Part shown: piece by piece, positions 7,267 to 14,069 of the stretch
How positions within the stretch are numbered: position 1 is the stretch's first letter
Layout of the letters: each line of letters opens with the position of its first letter
Assembly: GCA_947468085.1 (NCBI GenBank)
Contig: CANIKY010000021.1
Coordinates: 1 to 38,487 of the forward strand
Source: Paracoccaceae bacterium
GTDB lineage: Bacteria > Pseudomonadota > Alphaproteobacteria > Rhodobacterales > Rhodobacteraceae
Direction of reading: 5' to 3'
DNA: 38,487 bases
Position numbers and translations under genes: made by a program
Notes under the pieces: generated by a model
The model's input: only the letters and a program-made list of their open reading frames with translations
What the model was told of the DNA's origin: nothing
The model's database searches: none

Positions 7267-8046
7267 TTAGGTGTGTTGGGCCAAGAGGGCAGACAGGGGC
7301 GGCACGTCGCAGGCTTGCACAACTTTCGCCCATGCGATCACCCGCCCGCCCACAAGGTCGATGCCCGATTTGCGGCGTGCATTGGGGGTGATGCCGTCGA
7401 AGGCCAGTTCGAACACTTGGGTCGGGGCCACTTGCCGCAGGGGGCCAAAGCGGTCGGTGACATGTGCTCGCGCCCAAGCCAGAAGGGCGGGGGTTTGCGG
7501 CAAGGTCACGCGCAAGCGGGTCAAAGGCACCAAGGTATTGTCATGGGGCAGGGCAAAGGTGGCTTCGGGGCCGGAGGGGTCGATGAGGGTCAAGATCGCC
7601 AGACAGCGCCCGGGGGTTTGGGGGCCGGTTTGGGGCAGGGCCAGTTTGGTGCGAAAGGTGCCGGTGGCGAGGCGGTTCAGAATCGTGCGTGCTTTGGGTG
7701 GAAGAGTGCGAGAAAGGGCCAGATAGGCTGGGGCTGAGGTAAGGCTGGCCAGTGCCTCGGTTAAGGTTGGCGCGGTGGCGGTGGTGGGTGGGGGTAAAAG
7801 AAGGGCTGCGAGTTCGGCCTTGTCTGGGCAGGTTTTCAGGCAGGCTTCGATCAGGAAGGCCGGGGTGTTGGTGGCTTTGGCCACCCAGTCCAGCAAGGTG
7901 GCGGGTGGGGCCAAGCGTTTGGGGCGTTGGCCGGATAACAAGCGCAGGGCGGTTGCGCCGTCTTCGGGGCCGACTTCGGCCTGATAGGCTGCGAAGGCCT
8001 GCGGCTGCGGTGCGCCTTGGGCGACAAGGCGGGCAAAGCGGATCAT
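7267..8046 (-). CDS. DNA-ligase-like protein lacking the adenylation domain
   Basis: 259 residues. Residues 1-140 resemble the N-terminal DNA-binding domain of the ATP-dependent 'cisplatin damage response' ligases (MIRFARLVAQ, ALRLLSGQRPKRL, AALLLPPP, ILNRLATGTFRTKL). Residues 145-259 resemble their C-terminal OB-fold domain (ARAHVTDRFGPLRQVAPTQV, FELAFDGITPNARRKSG). The roughly 270 residues that should lie between, with the KxDG nucleotidyltransferase centre, are absent, and no KxDG occurs anywhere. Full ligases of this type are about 510-540 residues. The frame is intact, and the ATG (8046) overlaps the stop of the upstream exonuclease as ATGA, so this looks like a maintained coupled gene rather than debris. 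It cannot ligate by the known mechanism. The helicase and PdeM partners usual for such loci are not next to it. Confidence 0.8.
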   Translation of the reverse strand: MIRFARLVAQGAPQPQAFAAYQAEVGPEDGATALRLLSGQRPKRLAPPATLLDWVAKATNTPAFLIEACLKTCPDKAELAALLLPPPTTATAPTLTEALASLTSAPAYLALSRTLPPKARTILNRLATGTFRTKLALPQTGPQTPGRCLAILTLIDPSGPEATFALPHDNTLVPLTRLRVTLPQTPALLAWARAHVTDRFGPLRQVAPTQVFELAFDGITPNARRKSGIDLVGGRVIAWAKVVQACDVPPLSALLAQHT

Positions 8047-8996
8047 GAAAGCGCCTGCGCTGACAGGCCTTGGGCGCGCAGCCATTGGGCGAAAGGGCCG
8101 GTGGAGCCGTGCAGTGTATAGACCTGTTCTGCGCCTGTGGCTGTCACTGCCGCGTTCAATCCCGGCCAATCGGCGTGGTCCGACAGCACAAAGGCCGCCG
8201 ACGTCCCCTTGCGTCGTGCCGCCAGCGCCATCCAGCCAGAGGCTGCCCCCACCTGATGCGGGCCCAAAGCCAGCGCCCAATCCGAAGCCATGGCATTGGG
8301 CGTGGCGATCACCAGCGCCCCTTGGGGCGGCGGGGTGTTCCCCAGTGGCATGGTGGGCGGCAGGCGGTAGCCTTGGCGGCGCAAAACCTCGGTCACGCCT
8401 TCTACCACGGGATGGGTGCAGATCGGGCCTAAACCCGCCAAACCTGCCATCAAGCGCTGTGCCTTGCCAAAGGAATAGGCCAGCAGCACCGAGGCCACCC
8501 CGCGCGCTGCATTGGCCTGCCACCAAGCGGCGATCTGGCCCATCACCTCGGCCTCGCGCTGCCAGTGAAAGATCGGCAGGCCAAAGGTGGTTTCGGTCAG
8601 GAAGGTGTGGCAGCGCAGCGCCTCAAACGGCTCGCACAGCGCATCGGGCGCGGTCTTGTAATCGCCCGAGGCGACCCAGACCTCTCCCCCCCGTTCGATC
8701 CTGATCTGGGCCGATCCGGGCACATGGCCTGCGGGATGAAAGCTGACAGTGACACCACCAATCTGGCGCGCCTCGCCATAGGCAATCCCTTCGGCCGCGA
8801 TCTTGCCCAGACGGTGGCGGATGACGGGCAGGGCTTGATGGGTGCACAGATAGGTTCCCATACCGCGGGCCGCGTGGTCAGAATGGCCGTGCGTGATGAG
8901 CGCGCGGGGCACGCGGCCCATCGGGTCAATGTGAAAATCCCCATCTGGGCAAAACAAGCCTTGGGGAGTTTGGATAACAAGGGGCGCGCGCGTCAT
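8043..8996 (-). CDS. ligase-associated DNA damage response exonuclease (MBL fold)
   Basis: A 317-residue metallo-beta-lactamase-fold nuclease of the family found beside bacterial ATP-dependent repair ligases. The metal-binding motif HGHSDH is at 36-41 (RALITHGHSDHAARG), followed by HPAGHVPGSAQIRIE and SGDYKTAPD, the usual second histidine and bridging aspartate regions, then LSDHADWPGL near the C-terminus. The family is related to SNM1/beta-CASP type nucleases and is thought to process damaged ends. It is the first gene of a two-gene minus-strand operon with the domain-deleted ligase-like protein, joined by an ATGA overlap. No strong Shine-Dalgarno is seen before the ATG at 8996. Confidence 0.9.
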   Translation of the reverse strand: MTRAPLVIQTPQGLFCPDGDFHIDPMGRVPRALITHGHSDHAARGMGTYLCTHQALPVIRHRLGKIAAEGIAYGEARQIGGVTVSFHPAGHVPGSAQIRIERGGEVWVASGDYKTAPDALCEPFEALRCHTFLTETTFGLPIFHWQREAEVMGQIAAWWQANAARGVASVLLAYSFGKAQRLMAGLAGLGPICTHPVVEGVTEVLRRQGYRLPPTMPLGNTPPPQGALVIATPNAMASDWALALGPHQVGAASGWMALAARRKGTSAAFVLSDHADWPGLNAAVTATGAEQVYTLHGSTGPFAQWLRAQGLSAQALS

Positions 8997-11039: not shown

Positions 11040-14000
11040 GTGCACGAACCTTCACGGGTGATGGCGGTCCTTGGGCCGACCAATACCGGCAAAACCCATT
11101 ACGCCATCGAAAAGATGCTGTCGCACCGCACTGGCGTCATTGGCCTGCCGCTGCGCCTTTTGGCGCGTGAGGTTTATGAGCGCATTGTCAAGCTGCGCGG
11201 CCCTTCGGTGGTGGCGCTGGTCACGGGTGAAGAACGGATTGTGCCTGACCACCCGCTCTACTGGGTGGCCACGACCGAGGCGATGCCGCTGGAGATTGGT
11301 GCAGACATTGTGGTTGTCGATGAAATCCAGCTTTGTGCCGACCCTGAACGCGGCCATGTCTTTACCAACCGACTGCTGCACGCGCGCGGATTGTTGGAAA
11401 CGCTGTTCTTAGGGTCTGACACGATGCGCCCTGCCATTGCGGGCCTGATCCCGGCCGTGCAGTTTATGCGCAAAGAGCGGATGTCCACCCTGACCTTTGC
11501 AGGTTCGAAAAAGATAAGTCTAATGCCAGAACGCTCGGCAATTGTCGGATTTTCGGTTGAAAATGTCTATGCCATCGCGGAATTGATTCGCCGCACCAAG
11601 GGCGGCTGTGCGGTTGTGATGGGGGCCTTAAGCCCGCGCACGCGCAACGCGCAGGTTGCGATGTATCAAAACGGCGAGGTGGATTATCTGGTCGCGACCG
11701 ATGCCATCGGCATGGGGCTGAACCTTGATATCAAACACGTGGCCTTTGCCTCCACTGCCAAATTTGATGGGCGCAGGATGCGAATGTTGACTGTGCAAGA
11801 GATCGGCCAAATCGCGGGCCGCGCCGGACGGCACACCGAAAACGGCACCTTTGGTGTCACAGGTGAAGCGCGGCCTTTTGACGAGGAAGAGATCGAGGCC
11901 ATCGAAGCCCATCGATTCCAACCTGTGCGCAAACTGATGTGGCGCAATGCTGATCTGGATTTCGCCTCGGCCGAGCGGTTGATACGGTCGCTGGAAAAGC
12001 CGACCTTTGACCCTTGGCTGTCACGCGCCCGCGATGCCGATGATGTCTTGGCGCTGAAATACCTGTCAGCCTTGCCTGAGGTCATCGAAAAACTCACCGG
12101 TCCGCAGCGCGTGCGCCTGCTTTGGGATGTCTGCCGCGTGCCCGATTTTCGCAGCGCATCGGATAACGAACACTTCTCGCTTTTAACCCGCCTTTTTGAA
12201 TTTCTGACCGGTCGTGGTCTGTCGCAGACGCGAATCCCCTCGGATTGGTTGAAAAAAGCCATTGAACGCATCGACAAACCGGGCGGCGACATTGACACCA
12301 TCTCAAAACGTCTGGCCTATATGCGCACTTGGACTTATGTATCCCAGCGTAAAGGCTGGCTTGAGGATGAAAGCCATTGGCGCGAGGAAACTCGTGCGGT
12401 AGAAGATCGCTTGTCAGATGGCCTACACGTGGCGCTGACGCAAAGATTTGTTGATCGGCGCACCAGCGTGTTGCTGCGGCGGTTGAAGCAGAAGGAGACC
12501 CTCGTGGCCGAGGTGAATGACAAAGGCGAAGTCACGGTAAGTGGCGAATTTGTGGGCAAACTGGACGGGTTCCGGTTCCGGCAGGACGCGACCAAGTCGC
12601 CAGAAGAGGCGCAGACCCTGCGGCAGGCGGCTCTTGGGGCGCTTAAGCCCGAGTTTCACCTGCGCGCGGACCGCTTTTATAACGCGCCAGACACCGAGAT
12701 GGATTATTCCACCCAAGGTGGCCTGATGTGGGGCAGTTCTGCCGTGGGCAAGCTGGTCAAAGGGGCCGAGGCCCTGCGCCCGCAGGTTGAAGTCTTTGTC
12801 GATGAAGAGGCTGGCCCCGATGTCGCCGACAAGGTCCGCCGTCGGGCGCAGCATTTCATCGACCGCAAAGTTTCGGCGCTTTTTGAACCCCTTGCCGCTA
12901 TGTCGCGCGATGAGGGGCTGACGGGTCTTGCCCGCGGCTTTGCCTTCCGCCTTGTCGAGGCGATGGGTGTCATCCCGCGCGAGGATGTGGGCGAAGACGT
13001 CAAGGCTTTGGACCAAGACTCCCGTGCTGCGCTGCGCAAGCACGGCGTGCGCTTTGGCCAGTTCACCATCTTCTTGCCTTTGCTGTTGAAACCCGCCGCC
13101 ACCCGCCTGCGCCTTGTGCTGTGGAGCTTGTGGTCGGGCCTGCAAGAGTTCCCCGAAAGCCCCCCACCCGGTTTGGTGACGATCCCCAACTTGGCCGAAG
13201 TGCCGCGCACCCATTATACGCTTTCGGGCTATCACCCCTCGGGCACACGGGCGATCCGGATTGATATGCTGGAACGTTTGGCTGATATCTTGCGTACGAA
13301 AGACAGCCGTGCCGGCTTTGAAGCAACGCCCGAGATGCTGTCGATCACTGGGATGACGCTGGACCAATTTGTCGATCTGATGGCCGGTTTGGGGTATAGA
13401 GGCGACAAGGGCGAAAGGGCCAAGGCCAAAGCCGCGCCTGTCGTCGAAGTTAAGGTTGAAGAACCGGTGTCGCTGAACCCGGTGCCGGAAGAAGTGTCCT
13501 TGATCAACCCCGTGATCGAAGAGCCTGTGGCAGAAGGTGACGCTGAAGCAGAATCCCAAGCGATCCCCGAGATGGAGACGTATTTCACCTTCACTTGGGC
13601 CCCCAAACCGCGTCCGCGCCCCGAACGGCCCGCCCGTCCTGAACGCGCCCCGCGCCCCGAGCGCAGCGGCGAACCGCGTGGTGACCGCGCCCCCCGTCCA
13701 GATCGCGGCCCGCGGCCCGATCGTGGCCCAAGCAAAGACCCGGCCCCCGTGATCGAAGGGGAAACCCCGGCGGTAGAAACTGTCGCCACTATTCCCGCCA
13801 CCGAACCGCGCCCGCGCCGCGAAGGCGAGCGTGGCGGATATAAGGGCGACAAACCCCGAGATGGCCAAGGCGAAGCGCGTTCCGACCGTAAACCGCGTCC
13901 GAAAGATGGCGCGCGTGACGGTGGCCGCGAGGCTCGCGAAAACCGCGACGGCGCAAAGCCCGATGCCAAACCTCAGCGCAGCTTTGAAGCCCGTCCGCCG

Positions 14001-14069
14001 CGTGTGGAAAAGCCGATCGACCCAGACAATCCCTTCGCCATCCTTGCGGCGCTTAAACTGCAGAAGTGA
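11040..14069 (+). CDS. SUV3-like DExH RNA helicase with charged, disordered C-terminal tail
   Basis: A 1009-residue superfamily 2 helicase. Motif I is GPTNTGKT (12-19) and motif II is DEIQ (94-97), the diagnostic SUV3/mitochondrial degradosome variant of the DExH box. Domain 2 shows TDAIGMGLNLDIKHVAF and QIAGRAGR (motif VI). A central region and a SUV3-type helical C-terminal part extend to about residue 800. The last 130 or so residues are low complexity, rich in Pro, Arg, Glu and Asp (repeats such as RPERPARPERAPRPER and RPDRGPRPDRGP), likely disordered and RNA-binding. The GTG at 11040 directly follows the TPR stop, with GGAG about 8 bases upstream; an ATG 18 bases later is an alternative. 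It probably unwinds structured RNA for processing or decay. It is cotranscribed with the S4 protein downstream. Confidence 0.9.
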   Translation: MHEPSRVMAVLGPTNTGKTHYAIEKMLSHRTGVIGLPLRLLAREVYERIVKLRGPSVVALVTGEERIVPDHPLYWVATTEAMPLEIGADIVVVDEIQLCADPERGHVFTNRLLHARGLLETLFLGSDTMRPAIAGLIPAVQFMRKERMSTLTFAGSKKISLMPERSAIVGFSVENVYAIAELIRRTKGGCAVVMGALSPRTRNAQVAMYQNGEVDYLVATDAIGMGLNLDIKHVAFASTAKFDGRRMRMLTVQEIGQIAGRAGRHTENGTFGVTGEARPFDEEEIEAIEAHRFQPVRKLMWRNADLDFASAERLIRSLEKPTFDPWLSRARDADDVLALKYLSALPEVIEKLTGPQRVRLLWDVCRVPDFRSASDNEHFSLLTRLFEFLTGRGLSQTRIPSDWLKKAIERIDKPGGDIDTISKRLAYMRTWTYVSQRKGWLEDESHWREETRAVEDRLSDGLHVALTQRFVDRRTSVLLRRLKQKETLVAEVNDKGEVTVSGEFVGKLDGFRFRQDATKSPEEAQTLRQAALGALKPEFHLRADRFYNAPDTEMDYSTQGGLMWGSSAVGKLVKGAEALRPQVEVFVDEEAGPDVADKVRRRAQHFIDRKVSALFEPLAAMSRDEGLTGLARGFAFRLVEAMGVIPREDVGEDVKALDQDSRAALRKHGVRFGQFTIFLPLLLKPAATRLRLVLWSLWSGLQEFPESPPPGLVTIPNLAEVPRTHYTLSGYHPSGTRAIRIDMLERLADILRTKDSRAGFEATPEMLSITGMTLDQFVDLMAGLGYRGDKGERAKAKAAPVVEVKVEEPVSLNPVPEEVSLINPVIEEPVAEGDAEAESQAIPEMETYFTFTWAPKPRPRPERPARPERAPRPERSGEPRGDRAPRPDRGPRPDRGPSKDPAPVIEGETPAVETVATIPATEPRPRREGERGGYKGDKPRDGQGEARSDRKPRPKDGARDGGREARENRDGAKPDAKPQRSFEARPPRVEKPIDPDNPFAILAALKLQK
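13600..13735 (+). repeat. imperfect PRPER/RPDRGP coding repeats in the helicase tail
   Basis: This stretch encodes short tandem units of the type (R/A)PRPER and (A/G)PRPDRG, with matching DNA-level repetition of CGCCCC(G/C)-type units. It forms the arginine-proline-rich core of the helicase tail. Confidence 0.6.

Follow-up and report, generated by a model that had tools for sequence, protein, structure and literature searches.

The window (the whole 38,487-nucleotide stretch of DNA that was analysed, from a Paracoccaceae bacterium) encodes a LigB-type DNA ligase protein that has kept both outer domains of its family and lost the adenylation domain between them. As firmly as sequence allows, we regard this short protein as real, old, maintained and non-ligating by the known mechanism: it recurs throughout the window's genus in the absence of any detected ATP-ligase adenylation domain, and its gene carries the mark of purifying selection, in line with the maintained, non-ligating protein put forward in an earlier note on this DNA.

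Domain layout and occurrence of the short ligase

The gene occupies 7267..8046 of the minus strand (stop codon at 7267-7269), and its open reading frame (7270-8046) encodes 259 aa without an internal stop. NCBIfam profiles matched the product in two pieces with a hole between them, which correspond to the two ends of the LigB-type models: PRK09247 (E 4.1e-25) found its best stretch at protein residues 16-133 (profile positions 22-150), and TIGR04120 (E 2.3e-18) at residues 170-239 (profile positions 436-507 of 526). The whole-protein scores were far under the curated cut-offs (88.7 vs 543 bits for PRK09247, 66.5 vs 400 bits for TIGR04120), and a Pfam search of the protein gave no match at E<=1. 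The AlphaFold (AF2) model (mean pLDDT 92.2) comprises two confident domains with the ligase DBD and OB folds, and was aligned structurally (VIA) to ATP-dependent ligases over residues 1-259. Read from the N-terminus (all features on the minus strand), the PRK09247 profile and the model delimit an all-helical DNA-binding domain (DBD) at residues 1-135 (7642..8046), with nine helices between residues 2 and 128; a variable linker (residues 136-147, 7606..7641) stands in place of the adenylation domain, and the C-terminal OB domain (residues 148-243, 7318..7605) includes a decayed catalytic motif VI (residues 232-243, 7318..7353; RFPRxxRWRxDK in full-length ligases).

When 13 short proteins were aligned with 20 full-length ones, the entire adenylation domain, KxDG included, fell into a gap of the former, and the adenylation-domain motifs I (KxDG), III, IV and V were absent from 13/13 complete short proteins. 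The profiles, this 33-protein alignment and the reading frame thus confirm the earlier note, which had described an unbroken frame with DBD and OB kept and the KxDG-bearing domain missing, and had correctly placed the junction near 7600-7640. Motif VI, which is needed for adenylylation, has largely gone from the 13 short proteins (R232 in 1/13, F233 in 0/13, P234 in 3/13, R238 in 2/13, R240 in 2/13, D242 in 6/13 and K243 in 0/13, vs 19-20 of 20 full-length ligases at the same positions); its R235 is still present in 10/13, and two OB loops, GHGRR and AYSG, are missing. Because the adenylation domain and motifs I-V are absent and motif VI is decayed, we consider it close to certain that the short protein would be unable to ligate by the known mechanism.

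The occurrence of the short form was assessed in 61 genomes (the window's own and 60 relatives), 16 of which belong to the window's genus, a Rhodobacter-like group. It was matched in 16/16 examined genomes of this genus, at 38-100% identity to the window's protein; 13 copies are complete, all of them with open frames at identities down to 36%, and in three genomes (G006, G013, G014) the gene is cut by contig ends. The ATP-ligase adenylation domain (PF01068, E<=0.001) was detected in 0/16 genomes of the genus, in 12/21 sampled same-family genomes of other genera and in 6/24 genomes of other families. A locus scan recovered 52 loci, among which the short form is represented by L087-L099 and the contig-end piece L117, all from the window's genus; the remaining 38 have frames of at least 495 aa, except for L116, which is cut by a contig end. 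Two of these short-form loci, L098 and L099, come from recorded strains instead of MAGs (Stagnihabitans tardus CYK-10 and Rhodobacter sp. KR11, respectively); their proteins have a shortened DBD: the OB part alone matches the profiles, and the DBD gives no match.

Since the short form recurs in 15 further genus genomes (three only as contig-end pieces), a chance open reading frame or a misassembly is ruled out, including the assembly error across the junction that the earlier note had allowed for. Domain-less homologues, which that note had proposed to look for, are present in every genus member, and its opposite case, a gap private to one genome among close relatives with full-length ligases, did not occur.

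A profile search of 394 family genomes (393 genera) gave, among the matches listed, 205 genomes matching at 1e-12; the two genus members in this set gave full-span matches (1.6e-117 or better), and the best listed match from any other genome was 3.1e-30. Nine family genomes had the exonuclease that neighbours these ligases and no profile match: PF01068 was present in six of them, G198 had no ligase beside the exonuclease, and G069 and G254 stop at contig ends.

Origin, selection and other inactive ligases

In a tree of the adjoining exonuclease (54 rows) the window's genus forms one clade (support 100/99), sister to G036 (99/94, or 100/94 with another row set), in which the ligase adjoining the exonuclease is full-length with KWDG. 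As the genus is monophyletic and its sister has a full-length ligase, the in-frame loss of the adenylation domain looks single and ancestral to the genus; the deletion is old and genus-wide, so that the recent event offered earlier as the dull explanation does not fit.

Selection was estimated as pairwise dN/dS (NG86, 8 pairs), with a codon bootstrap on 4 pairs. The short ligase gave 0.20-0.30 and the exonuclease 0.09-0.20, i.e. the ligase value is about 1.4 to 3 times that of its neighbour, and the bootstrap upper limits were <=0.55 for the whole protein, the DBD and the OB (4 pairs), which amounts to purifying selection across the homologues. Of four regions compared, the linker gave the highest pN in most of the 8 pairs; the tail was also highly variable in most pairs and was conserved in the closest one.

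The residues themselves tell of both loss and gain. Invariant in 13/13 short proteins are D75, A77, E78, L82, L126, G129 and R132 on the DBD side, and W191, R199-P202 (RFGP), V211, R224 and G228 on the OB side. A new residue has become fixed at three sites: R125 (13/13; K in 20/20 full-length ligases), N222 (13/13; S in 20/20) and R225 (12/13; H in 20/20). Among the family-conserved positions (those shared by 18 or more of the 20 full-length ligases), 12/31 in the DBD and 11/50 in the OB are retained in at least 12/13 short proteins, and 18/31 and 20/50, respectively, in at least 7/13. The mean net charge of the DBD is +1.5 in the short vs -1.1 in the full-length proteins (single short DBDs range from -3 to +7), that of the OB is +3.4 vs +4.8, and the short forms contain fewer K+R. 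We read this pattern as a change of job, in which an old constraint would have been partly released, the core held and a new constraint added. Because most family-conserved DBD and OB positions have changed and K+R are fewer, DNA binding by the short protein may be weakened or altered.

Catalysis appears to have been lost elsewhere in the Rhodobacteraceae by another route. Locus L102 (JAUXPG010000294.1, a Gemmobacter sp. MAG) encodes, beside an open-frame exonuclease, a LigB-like protein of full length (522 aa), in which HFGG replaces KWDG, RSMWLT replaces EGLMLK and motif VI is lost; like the window's genus, this protein carries RRKSG. In a screen of 150 family LigB genes, drawn from 198 matching genomes in order of decreasing similarity to L102, KWDG was found in 149, the exception being L267 of G079 (also L329; contig 25, 7350-8909), which has AWDG (catalytic lysine lost) and broken motifs IV (VGLMLS) and V (RWRWP). 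This ligase/exonuclease pair may be decaying, since the G079 exonuclease loses its reading frame close to the C-terminus. Two in-frame stops were observed in L264 (G284) and one in L321 (G258), both with the LigB KWDG kept; these are pseudogenes or sequence errors. Mean identities to the intact set for DBD/adenylation domain/OB were 39/40/48% for L102 and 50/45/63% for L267. A global erosion of the adenylation domain is thus not clearly seen, and in both proteins it looks like a folded domain with lost motifs.

As the exonuclease tree places G079 sister to L110 (ligase with KWDG) and L102 outside both (96/86 and 99/96), L102 and G079 probably represent two further independent inactivations, that of L102 coming from one MAG. 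Contrary to this topology, a tree of the DBD and OB columns set L102 beside the short clade (97/99 split). The exonuclease data reject a grouping of the genus with L102 (p-AU 0.0089), and the ligase data reject neither short forms with G036 (p 0.186) nor L102 with L110 (p 0.071). We take the position of L102 in the ligase tree for long-branch attraction; taken alone, the ligase data may be compatible with a shared origin of the loss in L102 and the short clade.

The partner exonuclease and the rest of the set

The upstream neighbour of the short ligase gene (8043..8996, minus strand) encodes a ligase-associated MBL/beta-CASP exonuclease of 317 aa (TIGR04122, 393.8 bits vs a cut-off of 325), and the two genes adjoin wherever the contig allows. 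They share an ATGA stop/start overlap (8043..8046, minus strand), which confirms the coupling first noticed in the window; the recurrence beside the exonuclease extends across the genus, with the same 4-bp overlap in 11/13 complete loci. In L098 and L099 the genes do not overlap and are separated by 96-119 bp; this gap (L098 3905-4000, L099 3717-3835) is alike in one frame (NPLA..GGASCPSRPPR), perhaps as a dispersed repeat.

The exonuclease of the genus has changed as well. A loop that reads ALAARRKG in the window (residues 257-264; 8205..8228, minus strand) and xxRGxRRR in most relatives takes the form AL(A/T/G)ARR(K/R)G in 14/14 readable genus members and in 0/38 others; RGxRRR was read in 26/38 of the latter, the remaining 12 having another form or being unread by the pattern. 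The genus exonucleases (14/14) are also without the C-terminal tail: 21-22 residues follow HG, vs 26-66 in 37 others (the out-of-frame G079 left out). Otherwise the enzyme is largely kept, as 56/70 of the columns conserved in 26 relatives persist in at least 90% of the 14 genus members.

As a marker of ligase activity the tail fails: it is missing from 14/14 genus members and short in L102, but L112, with an intact ligase, has an equally short one (26 residues after HG), so that the link between tail and ligase activity is only suggestive. G198 (L175, contig 216) retains the exonuclease but has neither an adjacent ligase gene nor PF01068 in the genome, and seems to have lost the ligase partner altogether; hence the exonuclease does not need an adjacent ligase everywhere. 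As the loop and tail of this exonuclease are ordinary (a sample of one), ligase loss by itself does not yield the changes seen in the genus, and the exonucleases of L102 and G079 also have an ordinary loop. The exonuclease changes appear to track the short ligase within the genus, as a correlation only.

The presence of the helicase, phosphoesterase and exonuclease was scored by profile cut-off (TIGR04121, TIGR04123 and TIGR04122, respectively). Across the 16 genus genomes the Lhr-type helicase passed the cut-off in 13, was divided between two contigs in two (the window's own genome among them) and was not found in one; the PdeM/MPE-type phosphoesterase was over the cut-off in 15/16; and the exonuclease passed the cut-off in 14, was truncated at a contig end in one and was not found in one, where the short ligase sits at the contig start. 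Helicase and phosphoesterase are encoded elsewhere in the genome, away from the short ligase/exonuclease pair. LigA was recovered in 15/16 genus genomes (it is absent only from a 75%-complete one) and is the only DNA ligase there among the types searched (PF01068, PF01653). In G020, G022, G025, G027 and G029, which have helicase and phosphoesterase over the cut-off and neither an exonuclease over the cut-off nor PF01068, the four-gene set comes apart into two pairs. The window also encodes (11040-14069, plus strand) a helicase-like protein of 1009 aa, which we take to resemble SUV3-type RNA helicases; its C-terminal tail is long and charged, with many R, P, E and D residues.

Possible roles of a ligase that cannot seal

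According to PMC10140301, LigB typically shares its operon with Lhr, a phosphodiesterase and an MBL-fold protein (citing Ejaz & Shuman 2018), the LigB/Lhr/MPE/exonuclease set has no known role, and exonuclease-LigB fusion proteins occur in Opitutus terrae and in Dry Valley metagenomes; MPE is reported near lhr genes in 276/319 bacterial genomes (PMC8301817). The short form shares with the LigB-type ligases (TIGR04120 'cisplatin damage response', PRK09247) common descent, DBD, OB, the adjoining exonuclease, and a helicase and a phosphoesterase in the genome, and differs from them in the missing adenylation domain and motifs I-V and the decayed motif VI. The fusions join the same two partners, but are described in that text with the ligase catalytic domain, which is lacking here.

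We lean towards the view that the short protein, derived from a ligase, serves the nuclease as a DNA-binding subunit without catalysis while LigA does the sealing, and consider this pairing of nuclease subunit and hand-off to LigA its most likely use. The sequences show that LigB lost its adenylation domain in frame in the genus ancestor and that DBD and OB have since been kept by purifying selection, with the gene overlapping that of the exonuclease in most members. On this reading the two domains, though deprived of the active site, would continue to bind damaged or nicked duplex DNA and would hold the exonuclease on its substrate; LigA would seal the finished nick. The loss of one domain with its flanks kept suggests that part of the enzyme's job is holding DNA, not sealing it, and a recruiting or clamping of the exonuclease, as the earlier note imagined, is suggested by the gene overlap, the genus-specific exonuclease changes and the published fusions (PMC10140301).

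The short protein could instead have LigA, the replicative NAD ligase, as its main partner and act as a hand-off platform or end-holder comparable to catalytically dead DNA ligase IV, the proximity of the exonuclease being inherited gene order. LigA is indeed the only ligase domain found in the genus genomes, and there is precedent in the literature: yeast Dnl4 that is catalytically dead still promotes imprecise joining, likely through a mechanism in which Cdc9 takes part (PMC3694833), inactive Lig4 gives a Lig3-dependent rescue (PMC11754673), and a non-catalytic role of catalytically inactive DNA ligase IV is also the topic of PMC9638927. The changes, however, were seen in the exonuclease (the partner that the comparison covered), and we hold this alternative unlikely. 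The parallel is also partial, as the inactive ligases IV described there are laboratory point mutants, whereas the short form is natural, genus-wide and lacks a whole domain.

Slightly less likely still is a partnership that is only structural (folding or stability of the exonuclease), with DNA binding abandoned. The gene overlap, the faster evolution relative to the exonuclease, the change at most family-conserved DBD and OB positions and the shortened DBD of L098 and L099 would all agree with it, but the DBD core, including G129 and R132, is held in 13/13 and the net charge of the DBD is not lower. A nick shield, which would cover nicks against premature sealing while the nuclease works, would explain why the protein retains the two outer domains of the ligase clamp but no active site; nothing specific speaks against it, but the nick-holding domain itself is gone, and we judge it improbable. 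Decay, whether of a truncated gene on its way out or after a recent in-frame deletion, finds some echo in the faster evolution, the many changed conserved positions and the relative G079 (dead ligase, exonuclease C-terminus out of frame), but is very hard to reconcile with open frames in 13/13 divergent copies, a dN/dS well below 1 and newly fixed residues. We give almost no credence to a split ligase whose adenylation domain, encoded elsewhere, would act in trans on the kept DBD and OB, as it is contradicted, at HMM sensitivity, by the lack of PF01068 (E<=0.001) in all 16 genus genomes and by the loss of motif VI.

The reduced ATP-dependent ligases described in PMC10140301 and PMC4220977 keep the core and have no extra DNA-binding domains, as exemplified by LigC, with its catalytic core (PMC10140301), and by the bacterial core-only ATP-dependent ligase of PMC4220977. 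Core-only ligases (LigC, LigE type) are likewise a natural domain reduction, but the short form is their reverse: here the core was dropped. Our literature search, with poor reach into subscription journals, found no natural ligase without an adenylation domain. More tentatively, natural pseudo-ligases of this sort might indicate that the selected role of LigB is, or can become, the non-catalytic holding of DNA for a nuclease; the Rhodobacteraceae would have given up catalysis on at least three occasions (one domain removal and two motif destructions), and the short form of the genus would represent a novel type of nuclease subunit.

With a 259-aa protein and its partner at hand, nuclease targeting and sealing become directly testable against each other. 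The genus discarded ligation and kept the rest of the set, separating the two functions for the experimenter; therefore, the remaining role of the set in these bacteria needs no catalysis by LigB.
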